Source of the DNA: an uncultured Porphyromonadaceae bacterium
Lineage (GTDB): Bacteria; Bacteroidota; Bacteroidia; Bacteroidales; Muribaculaceae
NCBI GenBank assembly: GCA_946183895.1
Contig: CAMHDX010000018.1
Coordinates: forward strand, 1 to 10,016
DNA: 10,016 nt
Direction: 5' to 3'
In this document: positions 2,665 through 9,473 of the stretch, in pieces
How positions within the stretch are numbered: the stretch's first letter is position 1
How the letters are laid out: the number at the start of each line of letters is the position of its first letter
Program-made: the position numbers and the translations under genes
Notes under the pieces: generated by a model
Databases searched by the model: none
Told to the model about the DNA's origin: nothing
What the model saw: only the letters and a program-made list of their open reading frames with translations

Positions 2665-3789
2665 TTAATATTCAAAGGTGGTAAATTGCGGATAGTGGTC
2701 GCTGGTGATGGCGTCGCCACGCACGAGGCTCACAGGCCTGAGGTTGCCGCGATACATCACATGGTCGATGCGGAACAGGAAGCGGTCCTTGTTGTAGGTG
2801 TTCATGTAGCCGCGATAGACCTCGGGGTAGACGTCGTGCAGGTCATCGCCCATCAGCGTCCGGTAGGTCCACGAGGCGGGCGTGTCGTTCATGTCGCCAC
2901 ACAACACGAGGTCGGTGGCAGTGCTGTCAACAATGCCGCGCAGCATCTCCGCCTCGGTGGCGCGCAACTCGTAGGCGGCGCGTAGCTTGGCTATCAACGT
3001 GTTCTTGACTGTCTGCATCGTCTCGCGGTCGCGCACCTTGCCATCGGTCACGTCGCGGAACAGGTCCTTGTCGTCACGCTTGAGGCCGATGGGTTGCAGG
3101 TGGTAGCCGATGAACCGGATCACGCGACCGGCGGGCATCGACACGTCGTATGCCTCAATGTCCATACTGTAAGTGCTCTCACAGTCCGGATTTAATATAC
3201 AAGGGTCAATCGTGGTTATCGCCAACCGCTCGTAGGGGTACTTGGACAAGATTATCACATCGTGATAGCCATGCTCTCGATAAGGATAGTGGGCATCAAT
3301 CGAGTCGAGTATCACATTGATGGCGGGAATGTCCTCATAGTGTATGCTGCCCAGCGAAGCTTCCTGCAGTATCACCACATCGGGATTTTGCTCAAGGATA
3401 TATTGAAAAATGGCATTGGGCTCGCGCTTGCGATTCTTGGTCCACGGTCCGGTGCCGCCCACATTGAACTGCATCATGGTGAAAGTGTGCTTCAACTCCA
3501 CCTTGCGGTCAACATTGCCGCCCACGCCGAGAGCTATCACGCGCGAGATGGGGGCCGCGCACGCGAGCAATGCCGCCAGCATGACTACCACACTGCGCCA
3601 TGCCCTCGCCGCCACCAGCACCACCAGCCACACCAGCGCTACCACCACGACGACAGGCAGCGCCAGCGTCGCCACCGCCGGCAGTGACCACCATCGCGGG
3701 TCGACCAGTCCGCCATAGGCACTGACAACAAGCATCAGCGCCACCACTATGGTAACTATCAGCAACCCTATGTCAATCAGTCTCTTCAT
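2665..3789 (-). CDS. Membrane-anchored endonuclease/exonuclease/phosphatase family protein
   Basis: 374 residues. Three hydrophobic segments (about 5-25, 38-60 and 66-88) precede a soluble domain with the EEP (DNase I-like) signatures in order: QFNV with Asn109, LQEA with Glu143, GYH with His230, GDMND with Asp299 and Asn301, RIDH with Asp342, and SDH with Asp364-His365. These are the metal-binding and catalytic residues of the fold, so the enzyme should cut phosphodiester or phosphomonoester bonds. Its substrate (DNA, phospholipid head group or sugar phosphate) cannot be read from the sequence. With three N-terminal helices, the catalytic domain may lie on the periplasmic side. Its ATG overlaps the stop of the upstream rhomboid gene (ATGA, 4 bases), which implies translational coupling. 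The M3 peptidase gene follows 18 bases later. Confidence 0.9.
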   Translation of the reverse strand: MKRLIDIGLLIVTIVVALMLVVSAYGGLVDPRWWSLPAVATLALPVVVVVALVWLVVLVAARAWRSVVVMLAALLACAAPISRVIALGVGGNVDRKVELKHTFTMMQFNVGGTGPWTKNRKREPNAIFQYILEQNPDVVILQEASLGSIHYEDIPAINVILDSIDAHYPYREHGYHDVIILSKYPYERLAITTIDPCILNPDCESTYSMDIEAYDVSMPAGRVIRFIGYHLQPIGLKRDDKDLFRDVTDGKVRDRETMQTVKNTLIAKLRAAYELRATEAEMLRGIVDSTATDLVLCGDMNDTPASWTYRTLMGDDLHDVYPEVYRGYMNTYNKDRFLFRIDHVMYRGNLRPVSLVRGDAITSDHYPQFTTFEY

Positions 3790-4532
3790 TTTTGAGTAAA
3801 ATGAGCTAACACATCACGCTCACGCCGCGACAACGAGTCGTAGCCAGACCGCTTAATCTTGTCCAACACGGCATCCAACTCTGCCTCGGTGGGCCGGTCA
3901 TGCCGTGGTGTCGGACGCCTGCGGGGCATCGCCCAGCGGGTGATGTCGGTGCCGCGTTTGAGCAGCAATGTAAACGCCACGCCGGTCAACGCGCCACCCA
4001 GGTGCGCCACATGCCCTGCAACATTTGTGCCAATGGTCAACACGTCAATCAGCACAATCACCGCCACGACCCACTTGAGCGCCACGTCACCGATGATGAG
4101 CAGGCGCACGCGATAGTCGGGGCGATAGCAGGTGATGGCGAGCATCACAGCGGCAACAGCTGCCGAGGCGCCCAACAGCACCCCGCCCGCCGGCATCGCC
4201 GTCGACACCACGAGGGCGGCAATGGCTCCGACCACGCCGCCCAGCACGTATAGCCGCACCACCTGGCGGTGGCTGTAGAACTCAATGAACACGTTGCCTA
4301 TCCACCACAGCCACACCATGTTGACCAGCAAGTGCCACCAGTCGACATGGACGACCATGTGGGTCAACAGCGTCCACGGGCGCAGGAGCGCACGGCTCCA
4401 CTCCAACGGCAGTGCCATGTACTCCACAACCGGCGAGACGAGGCGCAGCAACACAAACGCAGCCACGTTCACCGCCACCAGCCAGCCTAACCCGTGCAGC
4501 CGCCGCAAGGCATCAGTAATACTGCGAGCCAT
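3786..4532 (-). CDS. Rhomboid family intramembrane serine protease with C-terminal cytosolic tail
   Basis: 248 residues from the ATG at 4532. A longer frame to 4604 exists, but its extra 24 residues are not rhomboid-like and lie inside the preceding gene. Rhomboid signatures are present: HLLVNM (His67, Asn71), the serine loop GASA with Ser123, and AHLGG with His177. Serine and histidine form the catalytic dyad of the family. The usual GxSG is GASA here, so the fourth loop position differs. About six membrane segments end near residue 192. A polar tail follows, with a basic stretch (MPRRRPTPRHDR) and then a short helical segment around LDKIKRSGYDSLSRRERDVL. That segment resembles the small C-terminal domain found on many Bacteroidota rhomboids (DUF6576, from memory). 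The start lies 20 bases inside the preceding rhomboid gene and the stop overlaps the EEP start. The substrate is unknown. Confidence 0.88.
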   Translation of the reverse strand: MARSITDALRRLHGLGWLVAVNVAAFVLLRLVSPVVEYMALPLEWSRALLRPWTLLTHMVVHVDWWHLLVNMVWLWWIGNVFIEFYSHRQVVRLYVLGGVVGAIAALVVSTAMPAGGVLLGASAAVAAVMLAITCYRPDYRVRLLIIGDVALKWVVAVIVLIDVLTIGTNVAGHVAHLGGALTGVAFTLLLKRGTDITRWAMPRRRPTPRHDRPTEAELDAVLDKIKRSGYDSLSRRERDVLAHFTQK

Positions 4533-5247
4533 TCCTGCCGATGTTCTTGCGATACCAGTACAGCAGCACCAGCGCCCCAAACAGCATTCCGCCCAGGTGG
4601 GCAAAGTGTGCCACGTTGTCCCAGGCGAAGTCGCCCAGACCCATCAACAACTCGATGGCGGCGTATATCAGCACCAACCACTTGGCGCGGAAGGGGCCGA
4701 AGAAGAAGAAATACAACTGCAGGTTGGGCAGGAAGAATGCCACCGCCAGCAGGATGCCGAACACCGCGCCGCTGGCTCCCACCGTGATTAACTGGTTGTA
4801 CAGCGGATTGAGCGAGATGCCGTGGGCAATCACTGTCTTGTAATAGTCCACCTCGCCATAGGCGGCGCCAATGCTGTCAATCATCGAGGGTAACGTGAAG
4901 TGCCACGTCAACTCCTGCACGATGCCGGCACCCACTCCACACACGATGTAGTAAAACAAAAAGCGCTTGGAGCCCACAATCATCTCAATGAGCCGCCCGA
5001 ACATGAACAGGGCGAACATGTTGAAGAAGATGTGACCCAAACCCGCGGTCGAGTGCATGAACATGTAGGTGAACAACTGCACCGGATTGAACGCGCTGCC
5101 CTTGTAGTAGTGCAGGCCCAACAACTCGGTGAGGTCAATGGTGCCTTGCAGCAAGATGGTGGCAAGCCACAACAACACGTTTATTATCAACAGATGCTTG
5201 GTCACGGGCGGCATTGACCGCCATGAATCAGAACCGTATTCTATCAT
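4513..5247 (-). CDS. Rhomboid family intramembrane serine protease
   Basis: 244 residues and probably the first gene of the leftward operon. The rhomboid core is complete: HIFFNMFALFMFG (His72, Asn76) in the second membrane helix, GASG with nucleophile Ser159, and AHLGG with His217. The family cuts transmembrane substrates within the lipid bilayer. Compared with the minimal six-helix fold, there is a longer loop between helices around residues 112-150. The C-terminus is short (YRKNIGRNG), so unlike its neighbour it lacks a cytosolic tail. The two rhomboids are only distantly alike, so they look like old paralogs with separate jobs. The ATG at 5247 follows a stretch with no strong Shine-Dalgarno, about 150 bases downstream of a candidate promoter at 5401-5408. 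Substrates cannot be predicted. Confidence 0.93.
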   Translation of the reverse strand: MIEYGSDSWRSMPPVTKHLLIINVLLWLATILLQGTIDLTELLGLHYYKGSAFNPVQLFTYMFMHSTAGLGHIFFNMFALFMFGRLIEMIVGSKRFLFYYIVCGVGAGIVQELTWHFTLPSMIDSIGAAYGEVDYYKTVIAHGISLNPLYNQLITVGASGAVFGILLAVAFFLPNLQLYFFFFGPFRAKWLVLIYAAIELLMGLGDFAWDNVAHFAHLGGMLFGALVLLYWYRKNIGRNGSQYY

Positions 5248-6946: not shown

Positions 6947-8008
6947 ATGCTCATTCTTGTTATCAATCCGGGCTCCACGTCGACCAAGGTGGCTGTGTTC
7001 AACGACACCGACCAGCGGTTTAGCATCTCAATCAGCCACAGTCCCGAGGAGTTGGCTCCCTTCGACGACTTCACCGACCAGGAGGAGTTCCGCTATGACC
7101 ACATTTGCTCGGCGCTGGCTGCCGCCGGCTATGGTGAGACGCACTTTGACGCAGTGATTGGCCGCGGCAGTCTTGCCAAGCCTGTCGAGGGCGGCGTGTA
7201 TCTAGTCAATGATCAGATGATTGACGATGCGCGACGGGCAACCGACCGCCATGCCTGCGACCTGGGCTGCATCCTCGCCCAACGCTTCGCCCAAACCATG
7301 CCCGGCGCACTGTGCCTCATCGCCGACCCGGGCTCGGTTGACGAGCTCAACGACTACGCGCGTGTCACCGGTTCGCCGCTGATGCCGCACTACTGCATCT
7401 GGCATGCCCTCAACCAGCGTGCCATCGCGCGGCGCTACGCCCACGAGACCGGACGGCACTACGAGGACTTGAACCTGATTATCTGCCATCTGGGCGGCGG
7501 CATCTCTATCGCGGCACATGAGCACGGGCGCGCGGTGGACGTCAACAATGCCCTCAATGGCGACGGTCCCTTCTCGCCCGAGCGCGCCGGCACGCTGCCG
7601 GTGGGCACGCTGGTGGACTTGTGCTACAGCGGGCGCTACACGCGCGCCGAGTGGCAACGCCGCATCGCCGGTCAAGCGGGCATGAGTGCGCACCTGGGCA
7701 CTAACGACATGCGCGAGGCTCTGCGCCGCATCAACGCCGGCGACGCTCACGCCAAACTCATCGTTGACGCCATGCTCTATCACACCGCCAAGGCCATCGC
7801 ATCTCATGGTGCCACGCTGCGCGGCAAGGTCGACGCAATTCTCCTCACCGGCGGCATGGCGCACAACGACTACGTCACCAACGCCCTGCGCGAACGCGTT
7901 GACTGGCTCGCACCGGTGTTTGTCTACCCGGGTGAGGACGAGATGCGAGCTCTCGCCGAGAATGCCCTCGCGGTGCTCAACGGCTCCATTACCGCCAAGC
8001 CTTACTGA
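6947..8008 (+). CDS. buk: Butyrate kinase (branched-chain fatty acid kinase possible)
   Basis: 353 residues, full length for the acetate/butyrate kinase family (ASKHA fold). It transfers phosphate from butyryl phosphate to ADP, yielding butyrate and ATP, and works with Ptb just upstream. Motifs in order: NPGSTSTKV (7-15) for phosphate binding, GRGSLAKPVEGG (72-83), HALNQRA near 153-159, HLGGGIS (181-187), DVNNALNGDGPFSPERAG (198-215), and LLTGGMAHN (299-307) for adenosine binding. These separate it from acetate kinase. Small departures from the common pattern are GRGS where GRGG is usual, and PHYCIWHALN where an R/K-S-I-F-HALN block is typical. Such changes might tune acyl-chain choice, but this is inference. 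The gene ends before a hairpin terminator. Confidence 0.95.
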   Translation: MLILVINPGSTSTKVAVFNDTDQRFSISISHSPEELAPFDDFTDQEEFRYDHICSALAAAGYGETHFDAVIGRGSLAKPVEGGVYLVNDQMIDDARRATDRHACDLGCILAQRFAQTMPGALCLIADPGSVDELNDYARVTGSPLMPHYCIWHALNQRAIARRYAHETGRHYEDLNLIICHLGGGISIAAHEHGRAVDVNNALNGDGPFSPERAGTLPVGTLVDLCYSGRYTRAEWQRRIAGQAGMSAHLGTNDMREALRRINAGDAHAKLIVDAMLYHTAKAIASHGATLRGKVDAILLTGGMAHNDYVTNALRERVDWLAPVFVYPGEDEMRALAENALAVLNGSITAKPY

Positions 8009-8256: not shown

Positions 8257-8745
8257 TTACTTTGCCTGACCTGCCTTTTTATCGGGCTTGACGGGCGGAA
8301 TCTTGCAGTAGGGCTTGCCCTTGTTGGGCAGAGCCTGCTCGCCCTCAGCCGCAGCTGCCTTGTCGCACTGCTTCTCGGCCTTGCAGCATTGTTGCGCGGC
8401 AGCCTTGTCGCACTTCACGGCGGCTTTGTCGCACTTCGCGGCGGCCTTGTCGCACTTCGCGGCGGCTTTGTCGCACTTCGCGGCAGCCTTGTCGCACTTC
8501 GCGGCAGCCTTGTCACACTTCGCGGCGGCCTTGTCGCACTTCGCGGCGGCTTTGTCGCACTTCGCGGCGGCCTTGTTACACTCCGCTACTTTGCAGTCGC
8601 TACAATCCTTGGCGGCATTTTGCTTGCAGCACTGCTGTCCCGCCTTGCTACACTGCTGCGCGGGCTTGCAGCAATCGTCTGCCATAGCCACTGGGGCGGC
8701 GCACATAGCCAGTACCGCCACCGCTAACATCATCAATCTCTTCAT
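8257..8745 (-). CDS. Exported cysteine-rich heptad-repeat protein of unknown function
   Basis: 162 residues, not recognised as a named family. A signal peptide is clear: MKR, a hydrophobic run, then AMA before Asp23, so the mature protein starts DDCC and enters the periplasm. A lipoprotein is unlikely, because the only signal-region cysteine (Cys15) follows Met. The mature 140 residues hold 20 cysteines, nearly all others being K, A, D and Q. Three loose heptads (CCKPAQQ, CSKAGQQ, CCKQNAA) at 25-45 precede a short CSDC stretch. Nine heptads at 55-117 follow: ECNKAAA, then eight KCDKAAA, one with V in the last place. QQCCKAEKQCDKAAAA comes next, then a proline-lysine tail. If helical, heptad spacing would put Cys56 to Cys112 in one stripe. 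Metal, haem or thiol binding is conceivable but unproven. It begins 38 bases after the barrel-protein gene, with no promoter box between, so the two are probably co-transcribed. Confidence 0.85.
   Translation of the reverse strand: MKRLMMLAVAVLAMCAAPVAMADDCCKPAQQCSKAGQQCCKQNAAKDCSDCKVAECNKAAAKCDKAAAKCDKAAAKCDKAAAKCDKAAAKCDKAAAKCDKAAAKCDKAAVKCDKAAAQQCCKAEKQCDKAAAAEGEQALPNKGKPYCKIPPVKPDKKAGQAK
8395..8583 (-). repeat. Nine tandem 21-base units encoding the cysteine heptads
   Basis: Nine in-frame 21-base units lie head to tail inside the cysteine-rich gene. Eight (8395-8562) encode KCDKAAA or KCDKAAV and the ninth (8563-8583) encodes ECNKAAA. The eight differ at the Ala codon (GCC or GCT), the second Lys codon (AAG or AAA), one Cys codon (TGT at 8500-8520) and one Ala-to-Val change (8416-8436). 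Units 3-4 and 7-8 form an identical 42-base pair, which points to past block duplication. Such arrays tend to vary in copy number between strains. Confidence 0.95.
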
Positions 8746-8783: not shown

Positions 8784-9473
8784 TTAATAAATCTTGCTGA
8801 ACAATCCGCTGTAACTCAGTGTGATGCCATAGTAGGTACCACTCACAGCCGACGGCATGCCGCCCTTGAAGCGCGCGCCGCCAATGTGAGGCGTGATGCG
8901 CACACTCGACGTGTAGCGGTGATTGTCGACAAAGCGGCTATGCACCTTGATGTCGACATCAAGCGCTACCTGCCACGACACGCTGCCCAGCGACACGTCA
9001 TGGCTCTCGGTGACGATGAACACGTCGTGACCGTCGTCGTTGACGCCCCATTCCAGGTCGTTGACGCTCCAGCCCAGGCGGTGATAGACCATGCCGGCGA
9101 GTGGTGTGATGCTCACCGCGTCACTGCGCAACACGCTGTAACCCAGCAACGCCCGCACTGTCACATGGCTCGCGCTACCCGACCGGTTGAGCTGCAGGTC
9201 GCGCCCCTTCTCGTCAAACAAGCCGAACGGGTTTCGGACCTTTAACGACGGCTGGCCGTAGTGAGCCCCCGCCTTGAAGCGCAGGCCGCCATAGTCGACC
9301 TCGAATGCGCCGCCAAAGGGGACTTCGCCCTTGACAAAGCTGTGCAGGCCGCCGGCAGGCAGCATGCCGCCCACTCCGGCCTCAAAGCCGTAGCTCCACC
9401 GTTGTGCCCACGCGGACATCGCCATGACACAAGCCAGTATTGTTGTCAAAATTCGCATCATCGGCAAGCTCAT
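8784..9473 (-). CDS. Outer-membrane beta-barrel-like protein, exported
   Basis: 229 residues. A signal peptide ends at AWA before Gln24; starts at Met1, Met5 or Met6 would all keep it. The mature part is rich in alternating polar and hydrophobic residues with glycine and aromatics, as in small outer-membrane barrels: YGFEAGVGGML, AFEVDYGGLRFKAGAHYG, VTVRALLGYSVL, ITPLAGMVYHRLGW, WQVALDVDIKV, and a final YYGITLSYSGLFSKIY. The last strand ends in an aromatic residue, as the outer-membrane insertion signal requires. Length would suit 8 to 10 strands. No catalytic motif was seen. The cysteine-repeat gene follows 38 bases later on the same strand, and panB lies upstream beyond a 141-base gap. The only promoter-like box, TAGGTTTT near 9491-9498, is weak. 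The function (porin, structural or ligand-binding barrel) is not known. Confidence 0.75.
   Translation of the reverse strand: MSLPMMRILTTILACVMAMSAWAQRWSYGFEAGVGGMLPAGGLHSFVKGEVPFGGAFEVDYGGLRFKAGAHYGQPSLKVRNPFGLFDEKGRDLQLNRSGSASHVTVRALLGYSVLRSDAVSITPLAGMVYHRLGWSVNDLEWGVNDDGHDVFIVTESHDVSLGSVSWQVALDVDIKVHSRFVDNHRYTSSVRITPHIGGARFKGGMPSAVSGTYYGITLSYSGLFSKIY

Follow-up and report, generated by a model that had tools for sequence, protein, structure and literature searches.

Copper storage proteins (Csp) hold many Cu(I) ions through the cysteines of a four-helix bundle, and bufferins are cysteine-rich, copper-binding precursors that carry a signal peptide (PMC7558416 and PMC12452194, respectively). 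Here we compare with these and other known systems a cysteine-array gene carried by a contig of 10,016 bp (C18 of genome G000). The entire contig was analysed and is referred to below as the window; the draft genome it belongs to comprises 1.6 Mb and is 71% complete. With moderate confidence, we read the gene from its sequence and its relatives as encoding an exported, hydrophilic, metallothionein-like polythiol that would bind soft metals and would be an HMA-less member of a group of otherwise HMA-containing proteins.

The array gene occupies positions 8257..8745 of the minus strand, starts with ATG and encodes a probably exported protein of 162 residues (open reading frame and translation). 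From a reading of the sequence, residues 1-22 (8680..8745, minus strand) resemble a signal peptide, with MKR, a hydrophobic stretch and AMA preceding DD. They are followed by an N-terminal cysteine cluster at residues 23-54 (8584..8679, minus strand), which includes CCKPAQQ, CSKAGQQ and CCKQNAA (residues 25-45) as well as DCSDCK, and by the tandem array at residues 55-117 (8395..8583, minus strand; TRF and translation), which consists of ECNKAAA (residues 55-61) and eight KCDKAAA/V heptads (residues 62-117). A motif scan placed GKPYCKIPPV, common to exported HMA proteins, at residues 143-152 (8290..8319, minus strand), and the C-terminus reads LPNKGKPYCKIPPVKPDKK. The protein has 21 cysteines: C15 is situated within the signal-like start and the other 20 in residues 23-162, i.e. 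in 140 mature residues, corresponding to 14.3% cysteine compared to 0.93% pooled over nine other window proteins. The mature protein carries a net charge of +14, contains neither histidine nor methionine and has six large hydrophobic or aromatic residues; the 79 residues from 54 to 132 include a single large hydrophobic one. Long open frames also cover the array on the opposite strand; the cysteine frame was taken as supported because of the signal-like start and the cysteine-array relatives described below. The open reading frame, the signal-like start, the 20 mature cysteines, the nine heptads and the three divergent heptads preceding them agree with the preliminary description of this DNA, in which no named family had been recognised either. 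Correspondingly, no credible family match to the array protein was obtained in Pfam and NCBIfam, metallothionein families included; the HMA domain (PF00403) gave no Pfam match at E ≤ 1, nor did any PDB sequence at the same threshold. Matches to TMEM120A-B, Borrelia_P83 and an adenylate kinase model (Pfam/NCBIfam) were of low complexity and were rejected.

Relatives of the array protein occur in the genus. When 101 of its genomes were searched at the protein level, ten gave matches, the source genome included. One of the ten (G011) matched solely through L009, a cysteine-free low-complexity protein that was dropped together with L012/L023, which are of the same kind (L012 being a second match in G098). 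L002, L003, L004, L006, L007 and L010 were array proteins with signal-like starts, while L005 and L008 consisted of an LTXXQ domain (Pfam, over the cut-off) followed by a Cys/His tail, an architecture also present in L039. A profile search of 347 genomes of the family matched at least 11, all of the same genus among the matches listed. Arrays vary from species to species in the number of copies and in the sequence of the unit. At the DNA level, the pattern for CDKA-xxx-CDKA was found in none of the viral contigs searched and in 42 stretches of genome contigs; 20 of these 42 are cysteine-rich proteins or frames of Bacteroidota, two are from Lentisphaerae, and the rest belong to other families or to chance frames.

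Some of the proteins encountered have different architectures. Three CDKA-pattern loci recorded as Prevotella or Prevotellaceae (L048, L054 and L056) encode proteins that resemble the membrane-bound cytochrome b subunit of succinate dehydrogenase/fumarate reductase and have a cysteine-rich CDKA tail at their end; the one of the three that was scanned, L048, matched Sdh_cyt under the cut-off (E 0.00093). L030, L051 and L052 begin like lipoproteins (SCCNKK) and continue with densely packed CDK repeats; they contain 22-25 cysteines in 126-138 residues. Larger proteins with CDKAKAECD-type stretches and a histidine run near the end are encoded by L044:6458-7552, which matches EstA_Ig_like, and by L037:1185-2072 (35 and 24 cysteines, respectively). 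Comparable Cys/Lys repeats occur in L049 and L064, from Lentisphaerae/Lentisphaeria and hence non-Bacteroidota.

The array protein is linked to exported HMA proteins by its motif. The pattern P[YFH]C.[IMV]P was scanned against 3,550 distinct open reading frames (630,378 residues) of at least 60 residues, taken from all six frames of all fetched DNA, a set enriched for such genes. Nine matches were obtained, namely seven exported HMA proteins, each of which passed the PF00403 cut-off (Pfam), the window array protein and the array protein L003/L067; no unrelated frame in the set of 3,550 carried the motif. L003 had no HMA match at E ≤ 1 (Pfam). In L197/L242 the identical GKPYCKIPPV is placed after the HMA domain and before the Cys/His tail, and in alignment A3 the motif cysteine falls in a column that is invariant across nine HMA proteins, two of which (L162 and L241, among the nine aligned HMA-tail proteins) retain this cysteine but not the rest of the motif. 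Position provides another link. The array gene lies 38 bp from an upstream gene for an exported, beta-barrel-like protein (8784..9473, minus strand; OMP_b-brl, 23.8 bits, under the cut-off), whose closest available match is found in genome G021 (51% identity). There, an HMA gene on the same strand (PF00403, E 1.9e-7) begins 161 bp past the barrel stop and encodes a protein whose end carries GRPYCKIPP (GRGGRPYCKIPPTPRPH), in the slot that is taken in the window by the array gene.

An HMA domain with a cysteine tail is encoded at eight loci of the genus (L165, L162, L241, L242, L243, L244, L245 and L246), and an HMA domain with a Cys/His tandem tail at three loci from further families within the order (L260, L270 and L273), all over the PF00403 cut-off. 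A Parabacteroides plasmid was the sole plasmid-search match to an HMA-tail protein query, over residues 1-109. From 60 HMA loci, 27 distinct proteins were read out (20 loci yielded no protein), and numerous exported HMA proteins in the genus, those of ~109 residues, are almost tailless, indicating that tails are not essential to the HMA system. No exported HMA protein was found in the source genome at its 71% completeness. On these sequence relationships the window gene is read as an HMA-less member of the Bacteroidales exported HMA group, which may have lost the domain or gained the motif; the motif could also have been acquired without the accompanying function.

Genes for exported HMA proteins are associated with those for TonB-dependent receptors. 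A receptor was present in the flanks (~1.5 kb) of 57 of 60 HMA loci, which come from 42 genomes, 40 of them with a receptor. Across the order, 28 of 30 HMA loci had one, compared with none of 81 control loci, i.e. 0/29 barrel loci, 0/30 panB loci and 0/22 array loci, the latter being drawn from the first array searches and including the same gene more than once as well as a few false matches. Nine receptor proteins from HMA loci served as queries, and the count of 57/60 was unchanged when same-genome queries were left aside. In wider maps of 14 HMA loci the receptor was the adjoining gene in eight and one gene off in a ninth, and five of the receptors matched PF00593 (Pfam). Upstream of a receptor-HMA pair, L244:11462-11878 and L245:3825-4238 each encode a protein of 137-138 residues with a signal-like start and a CEMHHG stretch; the one of the two that was scanned, L245:3825-4238, had no family match.

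Among the eleven window proteins scanned, no metal family exceeded the cut-off and neither a TonB-dependent receptor nor a thioredoxin-like match was found. Neighbours assigned by Pfam include a convergent acetate-kinase-family gene thought to be unrelated (6947..8008, plus strand), two tandem rhomboid-family genes, the downstream one ending in DUF6576 (3786-5247, minus strand), a lipoprotein-like frame with a DUF4369 domain, truncated at the contig end (3-485, minus strand), and panB, encoding ketopantoate hydroxymethyltransferase and likewise truncated at a contig end (9615..10016, minus strand). Scans for regulatory elements returned three promoter-like sites versus 1.0 expected and three terminator-like sites versus 2.4. 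The beta-barrel was matched in 89 of the 101 genus genomes yet was not found by tblastn in 14 other array neighbourhoods; a common function of barrel and array is therefore not supported. For panB, 73 loci in 72 genomes (one counted twice) were surveyed out of 80 with a PanB match, the source genome of the window and seven others being left out, and a cysteine-rich gene was located divergently upstream in 38 of the 73. Where PanB identity reached 94% or more, this was the case in 36 of 39 loci, the other three having flanks shorter than 600 bp, and below 94% identity in two of 34 (L162 and L165, by a cysteine filter). The 36 genes encode repeat proteins with a signal-like start, a unit mostly of the MKHECKEG..CDKAEG kind and CKDHKDGQPCTKPADQQCPDCK-like caps, and in the products of those of L162 and L165 an HMA domain (PF00403, E 2.4e-7 and 3.9e-8, respectively) precedes CDKK/CDKA repeats. 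The array gene of the window shares the panB strand and follows that gene downstream at a distance of 0.87 kb. Their proximity could therefore be coincidental, and the arrangement may or may not represent the same association as at the divergent loci.

We propose that the array protein is probably an HMA-less, exported polythiol metal sponge, with Cu(I) as the favoured ion. A very hydrophilic polythiol chain would be exported and would bind soft metal ions via its many reduced cysteines in the envelope, most likely Cu(I), with Zn(II) or Cd(II) as possible alternatives, and would buffer or store the metal there. The chain would be flexible as in metallothioneins, with thiolate sites arising from folding back or from pairing of chains and with no fixed helix stripe, and it would belong to the Bacteroidales exported HMA group, some members of which carry variable Cys/His tails and which usually stand beside a TonB-dependent receptor. 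Export, reduced thiols, metal binding, the identity of the metal and the buffering role are what we infer from these relationships, and the step from the HMA relatives to metal binding by an HMA-less protein is of the same nature. The array protein is considered a probable metal binder because of the PYCKIPP motif, the HMA gene in the same slot of G021, the Cys/His tails on both HMA and LTXXQ proteins and the linkage of HMA genes to receptors. The metal or thiol-ligand sponge envisaged in the preliminary description hence survives as the best-supported reading, through its HMA, LTXXQ and receptor links, while the helix-stripe mechanism attached to it is not supported.

Copper is favoured because 20 of the 24 distinct PDB sequences matched by a profile of the HMA group bear copper-type names (two others are zinc ATPases and two are neither), but since copper HMA domains are abundant in the PDB, these names should be given little weight; NCBIfam copper models matched the HMA group below the cut-off only. 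In the 101 genus genomes, 48 of which are at least 90% complete, DsbB was found in none and VKOR over the cut-off in none (one weak match lay below it), so that free thiols in the envelope are plausible. Against the metal reading stand the lack of an HMA domain, histidine and methionine in the array protein, the 22 array loci without a receptor and the patchy presence in 10 of 101 genomes. The literature searched, outside which most subscription papers lay, yielded no metal-binding measurement for the array or HMA group.

The preliminary description had aligned the cysteines as a stripe on one face of a helix and had drawn a comparison with Csp. A cysteine-lined helical bundle resembling these proteins, which hold many Cu(I) ions in this way (PMC7558416), appears quite improbable to us. 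AlphaFold2 did draw a single helix at residues 48-111 (47-110 in the model, in which the first methionine is absent), but with a mean pLDDT of 48.7, a confidence at which the fold is neither supported nor excluded. The i,i+7 thiols on an ideal helix were computed to be ~10.6 Å apart and are therefore too distant for two of them on the same helix to hold a single ion. Cysteine spacing is moreover variable, with heptad spacing accounting for 47% of the cysteine intervals in the window protein, 35% in six array-only relatives, 25% in eight HMA proteins with tails, 47% in three LTXXQ proteins with tails and 9% in 35 panB-linked proteins. The array protein also contains no two cysteines four positions apart (CxxxC), lacks a twin arginine in its start, has a single large hydrophobic residue between positions 54 and 132 and gave no Pfam match to the Csp family; the stripe is not supported, and the comparison with Csp was set aside. 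We give hardly any credence to a bufferin-like RiPP, in which an MNIO enzyme would convert the cysteines into thiooxazoles. Signal-peptide-bearing, cysteine-rich copper-binding precursors do exist (PMC12452194), and EGKC and EGNC strings occur in L003 and L005, but the MNIO family PF05114 was detected in none of the 101 genus genomes (48 at least 90% complete) compared to two of 14 control genomes, it had no match among the window proteins scanned, and the array protein had no bufferin-family match. The bufferin and Csp identities were both rejected on the features tested (MNIO, DUF2282, CxxxC and Pfam).

The array might instead be a near-neutral, low-complexity expansion, in which 21-bp slippage would have enlarged an exported linker or tail of little specific function. 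TRF delineated a repeat with a period of 21 bp covering 8395-8576 (score 308; 8.7 copies at 91% match), each of the nine heptads is encoded by 21 bp, species differ in copy number and unit sequence, and the presence across genomes is patchy, all of which would fit such an origin. The variable columns of the eight KCDKAA(A/V) units are, however, three synonymous and one non-synonymous (A to V), and 37 of 44 pairwise differences among these units are synonymous versus seven non-synonymous (pN/pS ~0.05, indicative only, since the units are not independent). This synonymous bias is an indicative sign that the protein rather than the DNA is kept, beyond what plain slippage would produce. The units themselves vary (KHECADKKDCGAA, AGHCQQGQGGCAHKSE, EHKCQGQAAG, HEGNCDK and KCDKAAA), and despite these many different sequences mature cysteine amounts to 5.8-14.5% across the protein sets compared, suggesting that composition and cysteine density are kept rather than any one unit; the tails may have arisen separately in different proteins. 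With such tails also fused to both HMA and LTXXQ domains, we regard slippage with little function as unlikely. The same degree of doubt applies to a redox buffer or sulfide/persulfide carrier of the envelope that would cycle between thiols and disulfides or polysulfides with no metal involved. The very high cysteine content with no histidine or methionine in the mature protein would suit it, and the genus without DsbB and without VKOR over the cut-off makes a thiol-rich envelope plausible. The truncated DUF4369 gene, ~7.8 kb away at the far end of the contig, would also be in keeping with it; DUF4369 often precedes thioredoxin-like domains in Bacteroidales. The occurrence of such tails on the HMA and LTXXQ domains of relatives, the association of HMA genes with TonB-dependent receptors and the lack of a thioredoxin-like match among the eleven window proteins scanned nevertheless argue against this carrier.

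If the metal-binding reading is true, it points to the handling of copper or other soft metals in the envelope of gut and rumen Bacteroidales and ties orphan cysteine-array proteins to a receptor-HMA gene pair that is found across the order. It would also offer a series of naturally occurring polythiol repeats in which the evolution of metal-binding chains can be tested, and it predicts that array proteins become more abundant under metal stress and have metal bound. More tentatively, anaerobic Bacteroidales may grow tandem Cys/His arrays on receptor-partner HMA (and LTXXQ) proteins as metal reservoirs of the envelope, which would sometimes stand free, as in the window; this recurrently invented counterpart of metallothionein is a possibility we hold with considerable reserve. 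An envelope counterpart is conceivable because the cells appear to have none of the common disulfide-forming membrane enzymes.

Among known and newly described systems, Csp1 and Csp3 share with the array protein many cysteines and a possible role as a Cu(I) reservoir, and Csp1 is exported; the array protein differs in having no CxxxC, no twin arginine in its start and no confident bundle prediction. Bufferins likewise have a signal peptide and several cysteines and bind envelope copper, whereas no MNIO enzyme was found in the genus of the array protein, which has no DUF2282 match. The tailed LTXXQ (Spy/CpxP-like) proteins L005, L008 and L039 resemble it in their signal-like start and C-terminal, cysteine-rich CDK-type stretches and differ from it by their folded LTXXQ domain. 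With the exported HMA proteins of Bacteroidales it has in common the PYCKIPP motif, the slot occupied in G021 and the style of the cysteine tails of the tailed ones, but it has no HMA domain, the part that carries a CxxC metal site, and its motif follows rather than precedes the array; of the features of the exported HMA/PYCKIPP group as defined here, it carries the motif and lacks the receptor neighbour. Differing from metallothioneins such as SmtA in being probably exported, in its regular repeats encoded by 21 bp and in having no CxC and no sequence match to them, the array protein is, like them, small, cysteine-dense and hydrophilic, with few large hydrophobic residues.
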